From Chromera velia (Eukaryota > Sar > Chromeraceae), in NCBI GenBank assembly GCA_018398765.1, contig JAHBMJ010000967.1, positions 1 through 37,875 on the forward strand: 37,875 nucleotides of DNA, read 5' to 3'. The translations under genes were made by a program, and so were the position numbers. The notes under the pieces were generated by a model that saw only the letters and a program-made list of their open reading frames with translations, did no database searches and was not told where the DNA came from. This document shows positions 5,891 through 36,566 of the stretch, one piece after another. Positions within the stretch are counted from its first letter, which is position 1. Every line of letters starts with the position of its first letter.

Positions 5891-7212
5891 ATGCTCTCCA
5901 AGCAGCAACCCAAGCTCCAGCTCTATTACTTCGATATCAAGGGCAAGGGTGAGCCCCTTCGTCTGCTGATGAACCACGCAGGCCTGGTTTTTGAGGACAT
6001 CCGTATTTCCAAGGAGACGTTTTTGCAGAAAAAAGAAAGCGGCGAGTTTCCCTTCGGACAGGTGCCCTGTCTCATTGTGGATGAGAAGCACGTTCTGGTG
6101 CAGACTAACTCGATTGCGCGATTCATCGGGAAGCTCTCAGGCCTCTACCCATCGGACCCTGTCGAGGCCTCAATGGTTGACGCGGTCATGGACCAGGAGG
6201 CAGACATCACAATGGGCCTCACGTGCACCCGATACGCTGAGCGGAACGGATTTGCTGCGATTGGCTCTGCGGAAGATCCAGTATACGCTGCAATCAAGAA
6301 GTCACTCAATGATGAGGTCCTGCCCAGGCATCTCGGTCAGTTGGTCCAGGTGTGCTCGATTGCTGCTGCCGTGTACCTTATTGGCAGTCAGCTCACCTCT
6401 AATCGCAAAAACCAGAGTTCATTCGCACCCATGACAGTGCATTCGCACCCACCAGAGTTCATTCGCACGCGTGAGAGTTCATTCGCATCCACCATGTCAT
6501 TGAGAGTTCATTCGCCTCTTTCAGAGTTCATTCGCACCCACAAGAGCTCATTTGCACCCATGATGGTGCATTCGCACGTGTGAGAGCTCATTCGCACCTC
6601 CGAGAGTTCATTCGCACCTGTGAGAGCTCATTCGCACCTGTGAGAGTTCATTCGCACCTGTGAGAGTTCATTCGCACCTGTGAGAGCTCATTCGCATCCA
6701 TGAGAATTCATTCGCACCTGTGAGATTTCATTCGCACCTGGAAAAGGTCACGCATTGAGCCTTCTTTTTCATATCTCCTTTTCTGGGCTGATTCTTTTTT
6801 TTTTTCAACTTTATTTACGCACTTGCTTTTCTTCTTTTTGAAACGTCTTGCTGCAGGGAATCTTGAAAAAATCCTCAAGAAGTCCCCCTCCGGGTGGATC
6901 GGAGGAACACCCGAAGCGTCCATTGCAGATTTCGTCATGGCTCCAAGACTTGAGTGGATCCCTTCCAATTTTGGTCAGTAGCTCTGTGCATGGTGTGTGT
7001 GGGTCCGGGACTCTGACACTTTACGTTGGGGGGTGGGAATGAAGACTGCATGGAGACGTTATTGTTCTTCAACGGGATTGATCTTTCTTCATTCCCTGGG
7101 AGTATTCTTCTTATCTGGTGGGCTTCTTGTGCATCTCTAAGAGTTTTTGCAGTTCCGTTCAATTCTATTCGTGTGTGCACGCGTGCCTGCATATCTCTCT
7201 CTCTCCCCCTCC

Positions 7213-8919: not shown

Positions 8920-10165
8920 ATGAAGCTCTTCTCTGTTCTGGCCCTTGCCGCTGGGATCCAGCAGGTACATCCACACGTGCCTCGTTCTGTCCCAGGAAAT
9001 TCATCTATATATTCTTTGTCTCTGTTTCGGTCGCTTTGTCTCTCTGTCCGTCAGCTGATTTGTTCATCTGTTTGTCTGTATGTTCGTCTGTCTCTCTGCT
9101 TATTTCTGACTGACCAACTGACTCACTGTCTCACTCACTGACTGACTTGTCATCTGTCAGTTGACACTGTGTGCGGTCGGCCGGTCGCGAAAAGGAAGCT
9201 AGGAAAGAAGAAAAACGACACAGGAGAAAGAAGTTGCCGAATGGTCTCTCTACTGGTCCATTACTCTCAATCTCCACATACGTCCACAGTCTACCAATTG
9301 GGCTTACACGGATGTGCCGGACTTCCATGTGCATGTTGCAGGCTTCCCTCGTTGCTTCTGCTCCTGTATCTCTCCGCACAACCACCTTGAGTAGGGGGTC
9401 TTCCTCTTTGGCGCTCACCCAGCTCGCAGAAAGGGACAGGCAGAGAGCGACCCCCCCCCACGCCTGTGATGCGGCAGTGGACAAGTCAATGGAGCTGTTC
9501 TTCTGGGTTTACGACATCGCAGCCGTGACGTGGAACGAAAGGAAGGTCAAGGAGCTCGAGTCCAATGAAGGTTGCAAAGCCGCGTACGTGAAGAAGCAGT
9601 ATGACATTGTGGACAAGGTGCAAGAAGTAATGGATGCAGTTACGACGGGGGGGATGGAGAAGTGCGTTGCCCATCTGTCTGCTCTGAGCATTGCGAAAGT
9701 CTGTGCTGAGAAGAGGAGCACCAAGCAGCGCGCCTATTGCATCAGAATGAAGCTGAAGAACCCCATGAACGAAAAGATGGCTCAGCTGGTCAGTTTAAGT
9801 TTGTCTTTGCGACTCTACCCTCTAGGAGTCAAATCGACTGCGTGAGGGGGCTTCATGAAACAGACTTCGCGGTGTTCTCACAATTCGATCAAATTCTCAA
9901 CCTTAGTAGTCTCTCTGTCGGGGACGTGCTTCCTGTCTTTTCATGTGTCGCTCGGCAAGGAGCACGTCGGCATGGTCCTTCATTTTTTTGGCTTTTTCAG
10001 GGAGGAAGCAAGACAATGAATCAAAGCAAAGAAAGCTAAGTTGCACACGGCCGGGCATCATGGTCGAGAGCTGCAGCCTGCTCGTGCCACAAATGCTTTC
10101 GTCCTTGATCCTATTAACTATCCCGCCTCAAAATGTACGGGTGATCTTCTCATTTCACGCATACC

Positions 10166-10201
<36 letters not shown>

Positions 10202-10703
10202 AATTGTTGCATGTATGCAGGATGTGATGAATCAGAGCTTCATGGTTCTCGCTCTGCTTTCCCCCAAGCTGTCGGTGTGGATGATGAACCCTGATGTGGC
10301 CACAAACGCTGATGAAGGGCCGTCGTTCGAGAGCCTCCTTCAGACCGCAGAGGAGGACGACGCCTTTGCAGACACGTGTCCTTATGACCCAGCAAAGTCG
10401 GCAGTCAGCAAGGCCGGGGACGGGGGTGGATTTTTGGAAATCGGGTCCGGAGAGGCCCAGATGACCCCGGCATTCCTCCAGAAGGGAGTGGGCCCAGGCA
10501 TGTTTGACGGCTTGTTCAAAGGTCTCAAGGCCGCGCCGTTTGCAGCAATCACGCTGATCGTTGGGGGCGTTGCGCTTTTCATTTTCGGCGGTGTGATTGC
10601 GAAAGTCGTCGCGTGCGTGATTGCAGTGATTGGAGCTGCGATCGGGATTGCAGCGCTCGTGGTGGTGATTGCAATAGGCAACGCTATGCGAAAGCACTTG
10701 TAA
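8920..10703 (+). CDS. Secretory-pathway protein with hydrophobic C-terminal membrane segment, unknown family
   Basis: I do not recognise this protein. Three phase-0 exons (8920-8964, 9342-9788, 10221-10703) encode 324 residues. Exon 1 encodes only the first half of a signal peptide, MKLFSVLALAAGIQQ; exon 2 continues it with ASLVASAPVS. The middle (residues about 50-165) is helical and charged, with conserved-looking Cys positions (HACDAA, NEGCKAAY, EKCVAH, KVCAEK, AYCIRM) suggesting disulphides. Exon 3 adds an acidic Cys/Asp segment, then a Gly/Ala/Val/Ile-rich stretch of about 48 residues near the end (about 270-317) that could form two membrane helices, ending RKHL. It is probably a lumenal or extracellular protein anchored at its C-terminus (inference). 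Donors are GTACAT and GTCAGT; acceptors are TTGCAG and ATGCAG. AT-rich islands lie on both sides, so it stands alone. Confidence 0.75.
10151..10201 (+). repeat. (CA)n microsatellite
   Basis: CA repeats lie about 20 bases upstream of the exon 3 acceptor of the secretory-pathway protein gene, in an intron where a pyrimidine tract would be expected. Confidence 0.85.
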
Positions 10704-18952: not shown

Positions 18953-21900
18953 TCAACCACTCTTCACCAAGGTCCACCCCCCACTGTCTTCTGATGAAGA
19001 TGCCGAGCCCCCCCCTCCTGTAGAGGTCCACCCACTCTCTGCACTCCCCCCCCTCTCTCCACTCGGAGACGGACTCCAAGTCCCCGCCCCTTCTTCTGCC
19101 CCCCCCGAATTTGCCCCCGTCTCCTGACCGGTCTCCGATCCCACAAGTCTCCACCCCCCCCCGTCTCCACCTGACGAGACCCCCTCCATTTTCTTTGAAG
19201 TCTCAGATGGACCAGCGGGGGCAGATGAAGACGCAGAAGCCGACACCGAATGTTCAACAGAAGGGGGCACGCTCTCAGCCTCTCCTGCTGGCTCAGCTGA
19301 CATGAGACCCGTCCCCGAACCCCCCCCATCTGCTGAGAGCGCAACCACTACCGCATCCTCCTCAGACCCCCTCTCGATCGCCCTCAGCACAGAGGTGTGC
19401 GAGACACCCGAACCCGAAGCGACCTTGAAGCCAACACCCGAATGCCCCCTCTCAGTGCCCATACCGTGACTGTGGGGCCTCTGCCCCATCCCCCCCATAT
19501 TCATTAGTTGATGCAGAGCGTTGAGGGATGCAGAGTCAAGTGAGACGGATCCGCCTGTCTCTGTCTGCGTGTCTGCTCTCAGGGTTTTCTGAGCTCGCCC
19601 ACCCGCGGGGCTCCTTCCGTCTACAGATACCGACACATCGGCTTCTGCACCCACTGTGACTGCTGCTGTGTCGCTCTCCTCTGTGCGGGATTCTGTTTCA
19701 GTTGAGGGTTCTTTTTTGTTTGGTTCTTCTCGGCTCTCTTTTTCCCCGTGGCCTCTCTGCCGATTCAGAGCCTCCTTAAATCTCTCAAAAAGTCCATCCC
19801 CCTTTGCCTCTTCCGTTTTCTCCTCTTCAGTCGGCAACCGGATCTCCACTTCTTTTTGAATCTCAATCGGCTCTTCGTTTGGAGGCTGCCAGTCAGAGGG
19901 AAGAGGGAAGGGCGGCAGGGAGGACGTGGAGGGGAAGTAAAGGGGGGGGGCCTCATAGCTATTCAGCAGAGTGCGGACCGGCCCGGGAACTGGGAGCAGC
20001 TTTGGCGGAAGGCTGTGTATCTGCAGGTGTGCAAACAGTTTCAGTCGTCCCTCAATCTTGACCAAGTCGGGGTTCTTCAAGGGAAAGGCAGAAAGAAGAA
20101 GCGATGTTGAAATATCAGAGAGGAATATTGACATCGGCAGAACAGAGACTGCCCCCTTCGCTCCGTCTTCCACAGAGAGACACTGAAAAAGAATTGGCAA
20201 AGGAAGCTGAAGGAAGACAATTTGGGCAAGTGGTGTGAGGTCTTTCACTTTTGACTCCCAGTTCACATCCCCCCTGTCTAGAGCCAGAAGGTCATGCTCA
20301 AGAACTCCCCCGAGGATATTTCCCCCATCACCCTCATCGACATGCAACAGCCGTCTTAAGTCTTCTAGACTTTCACACTCGTTCAAAAGACCAACACGCA
20401 GAGCCGAAGGAAGACGCAACACACGTCGTTTTGTCCGCATATCCGCATTGCCAAGAAACAACGCCAGTGATGAAACACTGTTGTACTTTGGGGGCGATTC
20501 CACTTCACGAGCAATGAGGAAAGTGCGTGCAAAGGACCCTTCTGACTCCATCTGCCACCCCACACTCTTTGCAGCACCTGCCCACCCCACTTCCTCTCTC
20601 ATCATCAAAATCGAGGGGTCATCAGACGGTAATGTCAGGAAGGGTGTGACAACCCTGAGGAATCGATCTCGATCCAGAGTATGCCGAAGGGACCCAATGG
20701 CATACTGAGGATCTAAGGGGAGGGCTTTGAAGACATCGGTGGCTTCTTCAAGGACCTCTCCAGAATTTGACAATATCGGGTCATTTGCCGCTTTGCGTAG
20801 AGCGGCACAGACGGCAACAACCTTCAGAAGGGTCAGTGCGACTGGGGCGTTGAGTGCAATGTCGTCCCAGAACTGCAGTGACTGTCTGTACCACAACTCA
20901 ATCTGAAGCCACGCCTCCTCCCACTCTGATGCCATCAGGTCTACAGCATGCAACCACACGTCGACCTGTCCTTCGTCGGAAGACAGGAGCTTCTTGACAG
21001 TTACGTGACTGGAATCTGGCAACACACCCATGCCCTGCCATTTGAGAACCCCCAGAACACCCCCCATGGTTGCTGTTCGGTCGAAGGACGGTCGTACCTG
21101 CACTCCGGAGGGATGCCCTCCTTTTCCAAGGAAGTCCGCAACCGTCTCCAAGTCCAGCAACGGCTCGAGGGTCACCCCGGGCTGTCCGGGACCGTTCGAG
21201 AACGGCGAGGAGAGTTCAGGCATCTGCAGCTCTAGTACTGTGGATGCAATGGCTTCTGTCCTTGCCTTCCGCTGTTCTTTTGCCCATTCCACGACGTCAG
21301 CAGGCGTGGGGGCTGAATGAAGTGCGGGTAATGTTAGGGGAGGGAGGTCTCGTGGGAGGCCGAACACAACCCTGAGAACGTACTCGGGTAAAGGGAGAAG
21401 CTCTGAGGGGACGTCAGGGGCGTCCTTTTCGAGAAGTTCCCTCGTTCTCTCATCTGATAGAAGAGGGATCTCCTGAAAAGAGGCCCGGAGGATGGAGACG
21501 GGGATTTCGCTGATGAACTCAGAGGCAGGGAGACCTCTGAGTGTCTCCGCAGCTCTGTCTCTTGCTTCTTCGTCTGTCTCAGCGGCTGCTCTGGAGAAGA
21601 GAACAAGAGCAAGCAGCATCGAGGGGGGAAGCTGCAACGCCCTAGCTTTTTCTGAGAGTGCGAGGCCCTCCAGTACAAGACGCCAGGGGGGGACTGAACG
21701 GTCGAGAAAGAGGAGATCACGGGATCCAGACAGAATTTTCCCACCTAGTTGGCGAAGCTCTTCAACCCCCTCACGCACTTTGACAACCCCTGCCCTTACA
21801 CAACCCGGAAGACGCCAAAAGACTCTTTGCATCTCTAGCGGGAGCTGCTTGAGGCTTTCGGACACTTGCAGAAACGAAAGTTCACAATCTTCATTCCACA

Positions 21901-24150
21901 CCGCGCGCAAGTGATCGATAATTGCTTGCACCTTCTCACCCCCCCTTCTCTCTCCCACCAACCATGAAAGCTCCCCCTCACCCTGATCCCGAGCATCCCA
22001 CATACGTGCGAGCCCTCCTACTACTGCTCCCTTTGTCTTGAGAAGATAAGGCGAGACTGTCGAGATAAAATCCTGCAGACCGAGTGCCTGTCCGCACTCC
22101 AAAAGAACAAGCTGCAGCGAGGGGGGAAGTGCAGCAAGAGCTGCGTATGCGTTCTCCCCCATCTCCGGTAACGGAGCAAGTACATCTGTTGCCCAATCTC
22201 GAACCTCATCTGCCTTCTTCACCGCTCCGATCAGGGGACCCATCGCATTTCCATACACGACCGCTGACTCTCTTTCTGCCACAAGGATCCACCTCCTCAC
22301 ATCCGACCACCCTGCTCTGACTCGCACAGTTGCCTTGTCCAATGAAGCCCTCCACAGGCTCAATTCAGGCTTGGACAGGCCGAGTGCTTCTGGAAGCACT
22401 GAAGGCGGACCGAAACCACGACGAAGGACTTCCAAAGTCCTGCCCAGACCCGAATCTGAAATGTCCTCTTGGGATTCCACCCACTGCGTGACACGGTCTG
22501 CCACGGATTCCTTATCCATCTGCAGGGCGTTGGCAAGTTGTGGAAGCCCACTTGTCTCGATCAGTGTGTTTACAGAGGTGACTGCTTCAAAAAAGATGTC
22601 CCCAGGCCCACTCATAGATCTTTCGACAGAGACTGAGGGAAGCATCAGGTTGAGACCCGGAAACCGGATCTCTGGGATGGCAGGCAGTCCAGGGATCTCG
22701 GCTGTTCTCCAGTCCCCATCAAAGTTTCTGCTCTGCTGGCCGGAATCAGAGGAGAAAGGACTGGGAACGTCTGGAGGGGGGGCGTAGGATCCTGAGGGAA
22801 GGGGGGGGTCTTTGAATCTAGGCACTTGGGGGGCCCAGGACCGGTAATTTGACCTAGGTCTGATGGCCAGATTGGGGTGTATTTCTCTTTCTGCCCAGAC
22901 AAAAGCCTCCCCTGCATCTGGAGTGAACCTGTCTTGAGAGGCGATCATTGTTGCAGCCTCTTCCAGAGACATCCCCCCAGGGAGGCTTTCGAGAATTTGA
23001 TCGATTTCCTCCTGCGTGACTGCTTCTGCGTACTCGGGAAGGTATAAATCCCCCCTGTTCTTCAGATAATAAGCGTCGTTGGGACTCACATACCCCCCCA
23101 CGTCGAACGCTGTGGCCTTCCCGATCGCCCCGTGTCCTATGACCCCCGGCCGTCTGGAGCCTGATGGCCGATCGAAGGCGTACAGGATGGCTTCTATGAG
23201 ACCCTTATTCGACATCCATTCGTAGTAGGGTAGATCGATTTTGGGGGGGGGAGGGGGAAGGTCTTCCAAGGGGGGAGGGGTGGGCGGACTCGGTAGAGAT
23301 GCGAGGGGGGCCCTCTCTGCTCTATTTGCAGAAGGGACTCTCAGTTCGAGAGGGATCGGGTCCGTCCCGCAGAGAGACGGCAGGACGAAGGCAGGAAGGA
23401 GCGGGTACTCGTCCCAGGAGACGGTCACGATCGTTTTCGAAAACTCTCCACCAGAAGTCCCTGAAGCAAACTCGAGGGATCTCAGCATGGAACTGTCAAA
23501 CAAATGACGCCCATCAACCTTCATGGCAAACTGTTTGTCTCCAGACCGCCGAGCAACCAGTCCTGCAGTCACACACCAACAACCGAGCCACAAAATTCAA
23601 ACTTTGTAGAGCTCTTTGACGAATGCATTGACCGCTACCCTCCCTTTCCACTGACCTCCTCCCATAGAGCTCAAGTCAGGATCCAATGAGGAAGGAATCC
23701 ATCCGCTCCTGAAGCCACCCAGCTCAGTCAGAAGGCTCTCCGCGTCATCTGGAAGTTCTGGAACGCCGAGAACCAGGAATGCGAGTTCTTGAACATGAGA
23801 ACATACAGAACGTGCGAGACCATTCAATACGTCCAAAGCGGATACACACGTTTCTTTTCCGTCTCCAATGTACCCAGGATTGCACACGCATCCCTCAAAT
23901 TCCACGATTCTCGCACATGAGGCATAAGCATGGCAGCTAACCCTCGACATTCCATCGCAGTCTCCTGCAAAAACAGATACAGATAAAGGTAAGTCAATTT
24001 GATTCCAAGTCGGGCATCCTCACCGCATTCAGAACGGAACTTACCAAAGCGGGGAACATAAGATGCTGTCATTGGTAATGCAAGAGACAGGAGAGAGATA
24101 AGAAGGAGGAGTCTCTCAACCGTAACACTCCTCATCTCCCTCCAGATCAT
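18953..24150 (-). CDS. Large secreted EGF-domain protein with internal duplication, unknown family
   Basis: Three exons on the minus strand (24150-24045, 23964-23656, 23562-18953) encode about 1674 residues. Residues 1-30 form a signal peptide with the core LLLLISLLSLALPM. A single EGF-like domain (residues about 36-76) has six Cys spaced C-x7-C-x5-C-x8-C-x-C-x11-C and the typical CNPGYIGDGKETC end. A Pro-rich linker (PPPLEDLPPPPPK, about 235-250) precedes a long Leu-rich helical region that I do not recognise. That region contains two diverged copies of the same module, about 515-875 and 980-1345. The last 280 residues are Ser/Gly/Glu-rich and disordered, with GWRLV and a terminal GWTLVKSG. 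No transmembrane segment was seen, so secretion or a vacuolar or surface matrix role is inferred. An ATG at 24135 also leaves an intact signal peptide. The 4.6-kb last exon is unusual beside the short exons of its neighbours. Confidence 0.85.
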
Positions 24151-33361: not shown

Positions 33362-34259
33362 CTTTTGCGCTTTCTTTCTCTGCCCCTCTCTTTTCCGAAC
33401 GCAAAACCCTGCATGCTGAAGAATCGTGACGGGGCACTTGTGGAACAGCACACGGGATAGATAGATCTCTTTCCTTCTCCAGAACTGAATGCCCTCCTCA
33501 AAAGAATTCAGAGGGAGGGTGTGGTCGTTTCGTTGGGGTCAGACGCCTTAATTCCGGACATGCAACGCTGGCAAAGCCGTAGAGCACCTCCTCGGTCTTC
33601 AACTCAACTCCCTCACGACCGCACCGCCTCATTCCCTCCCTGCAGTGGACAGACAGACAGAGAGAAGGGTTCACCACAGAGCATGTGACGGCTTTCATTT
33701 GTGCACCTTGAATTGACGACACCTCTCCCGTAGCAGGATCAACGATGGTGGCAGAGAGGGACAAAAGGCAAGCAGAAATGGGAAGGGTGAACCAAGAAAA
33801 GGCAGATGAGCACAGACACAGAGAGAGACCTTTCACGGCATTCCTTCTCATAGCAGATCCTTTTCTTGTGCCAATTTTGAGGCCTAACAGGGCGCAGACA
33901 GACACGTAAGCACACACGGTTGCTTCAACAAGTGACCCCATGCCAAGCGCAGAAGATGAAGGGAGAAGAATCAAACGACAACGCTCTCTGCCTCCGTCTC
34001 TCTTTCAAAAGGCATACGCAACAGAACCACACACTCCTTCTCCCGTGAAAACCACTTCCCCACCCACCCTCCAGCAGGGAGAAAGAGAGCCCGAGTGGGG
34101 GGAGACAGAAAGAAAGACGCCGAGGTAGGGGGCGTAGGAGAAGTAGACAGAGAGACAAAAGGTGCAGAAGGAGAAATCTCATAGACGCAGATGCACAAAA
34201 GCAGGCAGACAGGCAGACACGTGCTCAGGCTATTGAGCACAACCCACCTGATTTTTTGT

Positions 34260-35729
34260 CTAACCAATGACAGCATCAACGATGCCGCCAACGAGGCCCT
34301 GGCGGGGAGGGGGGTCTCTGTTGTCAATCACGACAACATCGGGGCCGTCACGGGTGCTGCCGTACCCGTCACGAGAGTCACGGGGATCGGACCCGTACTG
34401 CTTCTCCTCTCCCTCACCCTCCTGCAGTCTCCTGCCCACAACAGCATCAACGATGCCACCAACGAGTCCCTGGCGGGGAGGGGGGTCTCTGTTGTCAATC
34501 ACGACAACATCAGGGCCGTCACGGGTGCTGCCGTACCCGTCACGAGAGTCACGGGGATCGGACCCGTACTGCTTCTCCTCTCCCTCACCCTCCTGCAGTC
34601 TCCTGCCCACAACAGCATCAACGATGCCACCAACGAGTCCCTGGCGGGGAGGGGGGTCTCTGTTGTCAATCACGACAACATCGGGGCCGTCACGGGTGCT
34701 GCCGTAGCCGTCACGAGAGTCACGGGGATCGGACCCGTACTGCTTCTCCTCTCCCTCACCCTCCTGCAGTCTCCTGCCCACAACAGCATCAACGATGCCA
34801 CCAACGAGTCCCTGGCGGGGAGGGGGGTCTCTGTTGTCAATCACGACAACATCGGGGCCGTCACGGGTGCTGCCGTACCCGTCACGAGAGTCACGGGGAT
34901 CGGACCCGTACTGCTTCTCCTCTCCCTCACCCTCCTGCAGTCTCCTGCCCACAACAGCATCAACGATGCCACCAACGAGTCCCTGGCGGGGAGGGGGGTC
35001 TCTGTTGTCAATCACGACAACATCGGGGCCGTCACGGGTGCTGCCGTACCCGTCACGAGAGTCACGGGGATCGGACCCGTACTGCTTCTCCTCTCCCTCA
35101 CCCTCCTGCAGTCTCCTGCCAAGGACAGCGTCAACGATGCCGCCAACGACACCCTGGCGCGGAGGGGGGTCTCTGTTGTCAATCACGACAACATCGGGGC
35201 CGTCACGGGTGCTGCCGTACCCGTCACGAGAGTCACGGGGATCGGACCCGTACTGCTTCTCCTCTCCCTCACCCTCCTGCAGTCTCCTGCCAAGGACAGC
35301 GTCAACGATGCCGCCAACGACACCCTGGCGCGGAGGGGGGTCTCTGTTGTCAATCACGACAACATCAGGGCCGTCACGAGTGCTGCCGTAGCCGTCTCGG
35401 GAGCCATAGCCGTCACGGGGACCGGCACCGTACTGCTTCTCCTCTCCCTCACCCTCCTGCAGTCTCCTGCCAAGGACAGCGTCAACGATGCCGCCAACGA
35501 CACCCTGGCGCGGAGGGGGGTCTCTGTTGTCAATCACGATAACATCAGGGCCGTCACGAGTGCTGCCGTAGCCGTCACGGGAGCCATAGCCGTCCCGGGG
35601 ACCGGATCCGTACTGCTTCTCCTCAGTGGTCACAGGGGGCACAGCGGCTCCACGAAGGGCGGGGGTCTCGGGTGCCTCTTGAGCGACCGCCCCGATCACG
35701 GCAAAGACTGCGAGAGCTGTGAACTTCAT
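34260..35729 (-). CDS. Secreted tandem-repeat protein with RRLQE-punctuated 57-60-residue units
   Basis: One uninterrupted frame of 489 residues starts at the ATG at 35729, chosen because it begins a clear signal peptide (MKFTALAVFAVIGAVAQ); the frame also extends 18 codons upstream without a better start. After a short pro-like segment (EAPETPALRGAAV) come eight tandem units. Each runs EEKQYG, Asp/Arg/Gly/Tyr-rich RDGYGSTRDGPD, VVVIDNRDPPPRQ, the hydrophobic GLVGGIVDAVVG, then GRRLQEGEGE. The last unit stops right after VDAVIG, before the RRLQE. There are no Cys and no transmembrane helix. RRLQE is dibasic and fits RxLxE, the pattern cut by PEXEL/TEXEL aspartyl proteases of apicomplexans. 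A polyprotein precursor releasing peptides, or a repetitive wall or matrix protein, are both possible. It is the only intronless gene here, and I do not recognise its family. Confidence 0.82.
   Translation of the reverse strand: MKFTALAVFAVIGAVAQEAPETPALRGAAVPPVTTEEKQYGSGPRDGYGSRDGYGSTRDGPDVIVIDNRDPPPRQGVVGGIVDAVLGRRLQEGEGEEKQYGAGPRDGYGSRDGYGSTRDGPDVVVIDNRDPPPRQGVVGGIVDAVLGRRLQEGEGEEKQYGSDPRDSRDGYGSTRDGPDVVVIDNRDPPPRQGVVGGIVDAVLGRRLQEGEGEEKQYGSDPRDSRDGYGSTRDGPDVVVIDNRDPPPRQGLVGGIVDAVVGRRLQEGEGEEKQYGSDPRDSRDGYGSTRDGPDVVVIDNRDPPPRQGLVGGIVDAVVGRRLQEGEGEEKQYGSDPRDSRDGYGSTRDGPDVVVIDNRDPPPRQGLVGGIVDAVVGRRLQEGEGEEKQYGSDPRDSRDGYGSTRDGPDVVVIDNRDPPPRQGLVGGIVDAVVGRRLQEGEGEEKQYGSDPRDSRDGYGSTRDGPDVVVIDNRDPPPRQGLVGGIVDAVIG
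34266..35640 (-). repeat. Eight-copy 171/180-bp coding tandem repeat
   Basis: Repeat landmarks (CAGCATCAACG or CAGCGTCAACG on the plus strand) fall at 34271, 34442, 34613, 34784, 34955, 35126, 35297 and 35477: six spacings of 171 bases and one of 180. The 180-base spacing comes from an extra DGYGSR-type triplet group in the two N-terminal units. Copies at 34442-35125 are nearly identical, including silent positions. Confidence 0.95.
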
Positions 35730-36566
35730 TTTTGTCGCGGGAGAGACGGCGCCTACAAGTTTCGAAATGCTAACGGAGACCAAAAATGAGTTCAGAACAC
35801 CCTCTGAAAGTGCAAACTCCTACAGTGGACTTGAGCGTGCGTGTATGTGGAAACACGGAGGCTGTGTGGGGACAGAGAAAGATGGCTTGGAGGGAAGAAA
35901 AAGGGAAAGCACAGGGGGAAAGTATATTGCATGGGAAAGCCGGAAATTTTCGAAATTTCGGGCAATTTTAAGCATGCCGTCTCGCAGGAGACGGCGGCCA
36001 TTGCGGGGCCACTCTTGCAAGGCCCGCGAAAGAGAATTTTTCTGGGCCGGCGGCGCGGCCCGCCGCGGACCGAACATGCATGCACCCCGCGCCGCCAATA
36101 TCGATCAAGCAAATTTTAGAGGCGTCTCCTATCGTCTCTTCCTGGGAAGTCCCCCATTCTCCTCGGTGATTTCTATCACTGTCGTTTCCAACAGAGGCAC
36201 TTTACGATCCGTCTGTTTTTGCTCGTGATTTTCAGACGGATATTATGGAAGCCACTCGGGGCACTCCCGACTTGCACAAAGAGGTTTTTTGAAAGCTGCT
36301 GACTGGTTATCCGAGCACACCATAAGGACGGGTGGAGGAAGCTCCAGGTCGAACTTGCCTTACACACCTCCCCTGGCCACTTTGTGGCAGAGTGAGTCCA
36401 ACAAATTGCGTGGCAGCTGTCGTCTCGGTATCTTTGGTGAGAGATTTCTGCGACCAGCAGCCAAACGTTGCCCGTCGCCGATCCATCCGTCTCCGTTCGT
36501 TCGATTTCAATTGTGATCACGAGGAGAAGCGCTCCTTGCGGGCCAAAGGAAATAAAAAAACACACC
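35730..36566. promoter_or_regulatory. Shared divergent upstream region with serial palindromes
   Basis: These 837 bases separate the starts of the repeat-protein gene and the rightward last gene. Between about 35938 and 36062 lie GAAATTTTCGAAATTTC (near-palindrome), CCGTCTCGCAGGAGACGG (7-bp stem, 4-base loop), GGGCC-n10-GGCCC and CGGCGGCGCGGCCCGCCG. ATGCATGCA follows at about 36076. This dense, GC-rich run of inverted repeats is unlike the rest of the window and is a candidate regulatory or 5' UTR structure. Function is inferred from position. Confidence 0.5.

Follow-up and report, generated by a model that had tools for sequence, protein, structure and literature searches.

The locus described here raises the question of whether a secreted protein built from tandem, near-identical units is cut between those units in Chromera velia and, if so, by which enzyme. 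The window (the whole stretch of DNA that was analyzed, 37,875 nucleotides) is one entire contig of the assembly, and searches of the organism's own genome covered 177.8 Mb in 4040 contigs. The protein is encoded on the minus strand by an open frame of 489 residues, which runs from an ATG at 35729 to a TAG at 34260 in a single exon as read and opens with MKFT, the first Met of the frame. The coordinates of its parts, together with those of a candidate protease gene located elsewhere in the genome, are collected in Table 1.

Coding potential was assessed from the substitutions that distinguish the units from one another. A total of 14 of the 19 variable sites were at codon position 3, and pN/pS in the minus frame was 0.07 to 0.23 in the unit pairs compared (8 of 28). 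This third-position bias and the low pN/pS show the minus-strand frame to be a real gene; the unit is under purifying selection, and the residue changes between units in its hydrophobic stretches are Val/Leu/Ile swaps. Further frames of the array are open too, including one of 532 residues on the plus strand (34191-35789), as would be expected if there were no protein at all and the open frame had arisen from a GC-rich tandem repeat whose period is divisible by three. In the register of the plus-strand ORF, pN/pS was 0.60 or more in the 8 pairs, which led to its rejection as a gene; it is explained by composition as a by-product, given that random synonymous recoding of the unit left it open in 4675 of 5000 trials. 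The substitution pattern of the minus frame argues against the absence of a protein, as do the signal-peptide-like start of the frame and the antisense frames, whose lowest pN/pS (0.14 to 0.60) exceeded the minus-frame value in each of the 8 pairs, in some of them only slightly. It is thus very improbable that no protein is made. Searches with Rfam and for tRNAs returned no matches.

The initial annotation had described a signal peptide, followed by eight near-identical units of which all but the last end in GRRLQEGEGE, and this layout was confirmed. The predicted signal peptide (MKFTALAVFAVIGAVA) has a hydropathy of 2.5 to 2.8 over residues 3 to 16 (9-residue windows) and is predicted to be cut before QEAPE, with A-V-A at positions -3 to -1. 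From these features we infer that the protein enters the secretory pathway and is secreted. Tandem Repeats Finder reported 7.6 copies of 171 bp with 96% matches. Over their last 60 bases, units 1 to 3 share one sequence and units 4 to 7 another, and the end of unit 8, which stops at Gly before any RRLQE, is a third type with silent and replacement differences of its own. A recent truncation is not suggested by the stop at Gly, because the final codons of unit 8 match neither of the other two unit types. The identical DNA of units 4 and 5 makes the copy number uncertain in a short-read assembly.

Table 1. Features of the repeat-protein gene and of the candidate protease gene. Positions are those of the window unless a contig is named.
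Feature	Position	Strand	Remarks
Whole coding frame, 489 residues + TAG stop	34260..35729	-	Coding from substitution pattern
Probable signal peptide MKFTALAVFAVIGAVA	35682..35729	-	Hydropathy and A-V-A
20-residue leader QEAPETPALRGAAVPPVTTE ahead of unit 1	35622..35681	-	
Unit 1, 60 residues	35442..35621	-	End GRRLQEGEGE
Unit 2, 60 residues	35262..35441	-	End GRRLQEGEGE
Unit 3, 57 residues	35091..35261	-	End GRRLQEGEGE
Unit 4, 57 residues	34920..35090	-	End GRRLQEGEGE
Unit 5, 57 residues	34749..34919	-	End GRRLQEGEGE; DNA identical to unit 4
Unit 6, 57 residues	34578..34748	-	End GRRLQEGEGE
Unit 7, 57 residues	34407..34577	-	End GRRLQEGEGE
Unit 8, 48 residues + stop	34260..34406	-	End GGIVDAVIG-stop
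RRLQEGE, junction 1/2	35448..35468	-	
RRLQEGE, junction 2/3	35268..35288	-	
RRLQEGE, junction 3/4	35097..35117	-	
RRLQEGE, junction 4/5	34926..34946	-	
RRLQEGE, junction 5/6	34755..34775	-	
RRLQEGE, junction 6/7	34584..34604	-	
RRLQEGE, junction 7/8	34413..34433	-	
Plasmepsin V/ASP5-type aspartyl protease	Contig C500 18801-19689 (L073:2802-3689)	+	PDB and Pfam matches

After the signal peptide the protein consists of 18% Gly, 13% Asp, 12% Arg, and 9% Pro, and Cys, Phe, His, Met, and Trp are absent. The segment ahead of each junction had been called amphipathic or hydrophobic; it is hydrophobic, and the amphipathic part of the description was dropped, as the helical moment is 0.24 and a low-confidence model places a strand there rather than a helix. 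In that single-sequence structure model, strands were predicted at both hydrophobic stretches of the unit, with a mean pLDDT of 47.9 and a pTM of 0.49, which are weak values. No match to the array protein was found in the PDB by sequence search at E up to 1, and its Pfam matches (TSP3_bac, Plectin, and Lactamase_B_3) were judged to reflect composition. Like the calcium-binding thrombospondin type 3 repeats, represented by TSP3_bac, the units are rich in Asp and Gly, and the whole protein scored 54.7 against a cut-off of 25; unlike them, it contains no single stretch that passes, the best match covers 10 residues, and the likeness appears to be one of composition and repetition.

Composition and predicted strands bear on a second reading, in which the protein remains uncut as a secreted repeat protein of the cell wall, mucilage, or an adhesive and RRLQE is merely part of the repeat. 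The Gly/Asp/Arg/Pro-rich chain would then work whole, perhaps through stacked short beta strands (DVVVID and LVGGIVDAVVG). The composition fits such a protein, the weakly modeled strands recur at the two hydrophobic stretches, and the array has been homogenized through recent duplication, as happens in structural repeats. Exposed dibasic sites in flexible, glycine-rich chains of the secretory pathway are often cut, however, and in this protein the dibasic pairs are confined to the junctions, with the array stopping immediately short of the site. A stop in that position was counted as suggesting cutting between units. Weighing these points, we regard the uncut protein as a serious alternative that falls somewhat short of an even chance; a secreted precursor cut between its units, by whatever enzyme, stands at about even on the sequence features and is a little preferred.

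The junctions themselves were examined for specificity and conservation. RRLQE begins at residues 88, 148, 205, 262, 319, 376, and 433, and the protein contains 7 dibasic pairs and 7 RRL.[EQD] words, every one of which is at a unit junction. When units were shuffled, RRL.[EQD] was present in 0.7% of the products, RxLx[EQD] in 6.7%, G[KR][KR] in 17%, and any dibasic pair in 68%; RRLQE can thus be regarded as reasonably specific, a dibasic pair alone cannot. The consensuses given in the available text of PMC4764566 are RxLxE/Q/D for plasmepsin V and RRLxx for ASP5, and RRLQE agrees with both, which bears out its earlier description as a PEXEL/TEXEL-type site. Silent sites, too, do not vary among the seven copies of the junction, and random placement produced a stretch of 13 invariant codons, like the one seen there, in 11% of cases. 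Junction identity was therefore rejected as a sign of selection: because the silent sites are identical too, the sameness reflects copying of the array and is no proof of selection on the motif. RRLQE was not observed independently seven times, and a single ancestral motif explains all the copies.

Across the genome, a degenerate DNA pattern for RRLQEGE matched at 16 places, 7 of them in the array and 9 elsewhere. Enrichment of RRLQEGE, as a genome-wide secretory signal would show, was rejected, as the backward control gave 7 places against the 9 outside the array, in what is a low-power comparison. By the matched letters, 6 of these 9 places read RR and 3 hold Ser; 8 of them (L011 and L019 to L025) were inspected. 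A secreted-looking, multicopper-oxidase-like frame on contig C2379 (L075:2927-3862, minus strand; Pfam E 0.0029, below cut-off) carries an insert, RRRRRRLQEGEGG, that contains the same word as the array junction.

A search for a plasmepsin V or ASP5 homologue in the same genome had been proposed, and a candidate was obtained. The Pfam aspartyl-protease search gave 20 matches, of which 3 were compared with the PDB; two (on C3698 and C583) were pepsin-like, and the third, on C500, was of plasmepsin V type, with plasmepsin V as its best match at 9.1e-36 and BACE2 as the next family at 6e-9. The alignment of the C500 frame to plasmepsin V retains DTGS, the flap Tyr-x-Glu, and the GCHxEE...LF..Q region, and a weak second alignment (4.0 bits) reaches the second DSG. 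The flap Glu of plasmepsin V contacts the P3 Arg. By eye, the start of the frame resembles a signal peptide, and further same-strand pieces resemble the remainder of the second lobe. No report of a plasmepsin V/ASP5-type protease for Chromera was recognized by title or abstract opening in the literature searched; Chromera is part of the tree in PMC8540915, and the accessible portion of that paper mentions two enzymes of clade B.

With this enzyme at hand, the following mechanism may be proposed. The precursor would enter the ER through its signal peptide and receive one cut in each of the seven Gly-Arg-Arg-Leu|Gln-Glu junctions, most likely by the plasmepsin V/ASP5-type protease, which in the ER or Golgi would cleave on the C-terminal side of Leu (RRL|QE). 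The eight products released would be acidic, nearly identical to one another, and about 54 to 74 residues long (predicted lengths 74, 60, 57, 57, 57, 57, 57, and 54), and would serve as multiple copies of a single small extracellular protein; given signal-peptide cleavage at the predicted place, all 8 would begin with QE. Among the possible ways of cutting, the ASP5-like route has in its favor a motif of higher specificity, an enzyme that could do the cutting, and a tidy set of products. That the alga's own plasmepsin V/ASP5-like enzyme does the cutting is nevertheless put forward tentatively, at well below an even chance. The full proposition is somewhat more doubtful still: that in a photosynthetic, free-living organism related to the apicomplexans, a plasmepsin V/ASP5-type protease processes a tandem polyprotein, cleaving it at seven RRL|QE sites into many copies of one small secreted protein. 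If it is true, the PEXEL/TEXEL protease would have been a general secretory maturase, and even a polyprotein processor, before it served the export of parasite proteins to host cells.

Comparison with known ASP5 and plasmepsin V substrates revealed both likenesses and differences. Shared features are the signal-peptide-like start, an RRLxE-type site agreeing with both consensuses, the presence of the protease type in the genome, and several candidate sites in one protein. In contrast to those substrates, the putative sites of the array join tandem copies of one unit, and the array belongs to an apparently free-living alga with no export and no host. In usual PEXEL proteins, moreover, the site is closer to the signal peptide than the first one of the array, at residue 88. 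The presence of several sites is in itself no novelty, since Toxoplasma proteins are already cut at several TEXELs, as reported for GRA44 in the text available from PMC10900883. A TEXEL-type polyprotein in a free-living alga would be new if the ASP5-like route is right. The job of the PEXEL-cutting protease before parasitism could be tested here, as the algal genome combines a protease of this type with a protein that looks secreted and offers seven candidate sites.

The junctions also admit a third reading, which the initial annotation overlooked: Gly-Arg-Arg is found at 7 of 7 internal junctions and a bare Gly at the C terminus, and together these form the classical amidation layout. In an amidated-peptide precursor, a convertase would cut after Arg-Arg, a carboxypeptidase D-like enzyme would trim the Arg pair, and PAM would amidate the exposed Gly (...DAVV-NH2); the last unit, with its Gly-stop, would need no cut. 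Candidates for the later steps were found in the genome. A PHM frame on contig C487 had PHM as its best PDB match (7.1e-13, versus 7.8e-6 for dopamine beta-hydroxylase) and keeps FAYRxHxH and EMCNxY; in Pfam, Cu2_monoox_C was over its cut-off, while Cu2_monooxygen reached 22.5 bits, below the cut-off of 30. Adjoining it on the same strand is a PAL-like frame with a Pfam NHL match, for which the best match was PAL (1.1e-29, residues 81-227 of a 329-residue chain) and the NHL-repeat protein Thin scored 1.5e-29. As Thin scores almost equally, the PAL reading depends on the adjacency to PHM and on the stretch that aligns better. A carboxypeptidase of the D/M/N type, on C453 (1 of 3 M14 matches compared), gave 8e-39 with carboxypeptidase gp180 (D-type) versus 2.9e-11 with carboxypeptidase A4.

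The PAM-like gene, consisting of the PHM frame and the PAL-like NHL frame, is on the minus strand at L067:5770-8908, where L067 denotes C487 92500-101800, and its PHM frame has a membrane-anchor-like start by eye. A second copper monooxygenase, on C29 (L026:547-2067, minus strand), has a signal-peptide-like start by eye and lacks the EMCNxY residues of PHM in a weak alignment. Among alveolates, only partial sequences of the dinoflagellate Karenia brevis are named as PAM in the available text of PMC6529398.

The amidated neuropeptide-type precursors proposed for Chlamydomonas resemble the array protein in their signal-peptide-like start, repeated G-R-R, and terminal Gly; they were called by the same logic, including the bare C-terminal Gly, according to the part of PMC6313938 available. 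The genome of the array may likewise supply both enzyme types, judging from its PAM-type and carboxypeptidase D-type genes. Against amidation stands the motif itself, since G[KR][KR] is common both in the shuffled units and in Chlamydomonas, where 331 of 771 secreted proteins contain it (PMC6313938, same part), and it is therefore weak evidence. The near-equal match of the PAL-like frame to another NHL-repeat protein likewise counts against this reading, and unlike the Chlamydomonas case no prohormone-convertase-type subtilisin was recognized and the products of the array would be acidic. They would measure 55 to 73 residues before trimming, and this is long for amidated peptides. On balance, amidation is unlikely; if it does occur, the protein would be a multi-copy amidated-peptide precursor, and its source an alveolate equipped with PHM and PAL parts.

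The convertase was sought exon by exon among 36 subtilisin matches, 15 of which were opened, and none of the 15 was recognized as kexin-type in this search, which could miss one. HGTH was read in 13 of the opened loci and the His stretch was not seen in 2. The motifs DDG and HGT[RK]C are typical of kexins, and neither context was seen in any of the 15. The sole P_proprotein match (C879, L002:507-1860, plus strand) is beside a weakly trypsin-like piece (below cut-off) and not beside a subtilisin.

The same result bears on a comparison with fungal KEPs, which are processed by Kex2. The sequence rule for these proteins, as stated in the available text of PMC7329392, asks for a signal peptide and 3 or more tandem repeats, each 8 to 100 residues long and lying between dibasic sites. 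The array protein falls within it, having 7 RR, with 57 to 60 residues in each of the six RR-to-RR stretches; it differs from fungal KEPs in coming from a non-fungal organism in which no kexin-type enzyme was recognized and in having RR sites only, each of which is also RRLQE. Among 69,264 fungal secreted tandem-repeat proteins, only 7878 follow the rule for cut repeats (same text), a proportion that favors the uncut protein. No family was assigned, because the KEP rule is followed without a recognized enzyme and in another lineage, and because cleavage is putative for the TEXEL/PEXEL motifs and the protease.

Relatives of the protein were sought in several ways. No paralogue was found in the genome with the whole protein (2 candidates scored) or with the DNA of the unit, all 8 matches of which were within the array. 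The N-terminal 96 residues gave 10 matches at E up to 10, of which 8 were in the array and none was accepted; the two outside were on C3126 (E 0.305) and C2566 (E 4.33). The C3126 candidate was rejected after its six frames were inspected by eye and nothing resembling the unit was seen. Scans that reach close relatives only yielded 1 pattern match in IMG/VR and 54 in a prokaryote genome set, none of which was confirmed.

Three other features of the window were recorded. An open frame of 1546 residues at 18953-23593 on the minus strand had no Pfam match at E up to 1. On the plus strand, a frame at about 8921-10700 has a signal-peptide-like start (MKLFSVLALAAG) and a hydrophobic end; no Pfam match was obtained for its last part, the part searched. 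A 20-bp tandem repeat present in about 16 copies occupies 6414-6740, where it either forms the end of a glutathione S-transferase exon or follows it.
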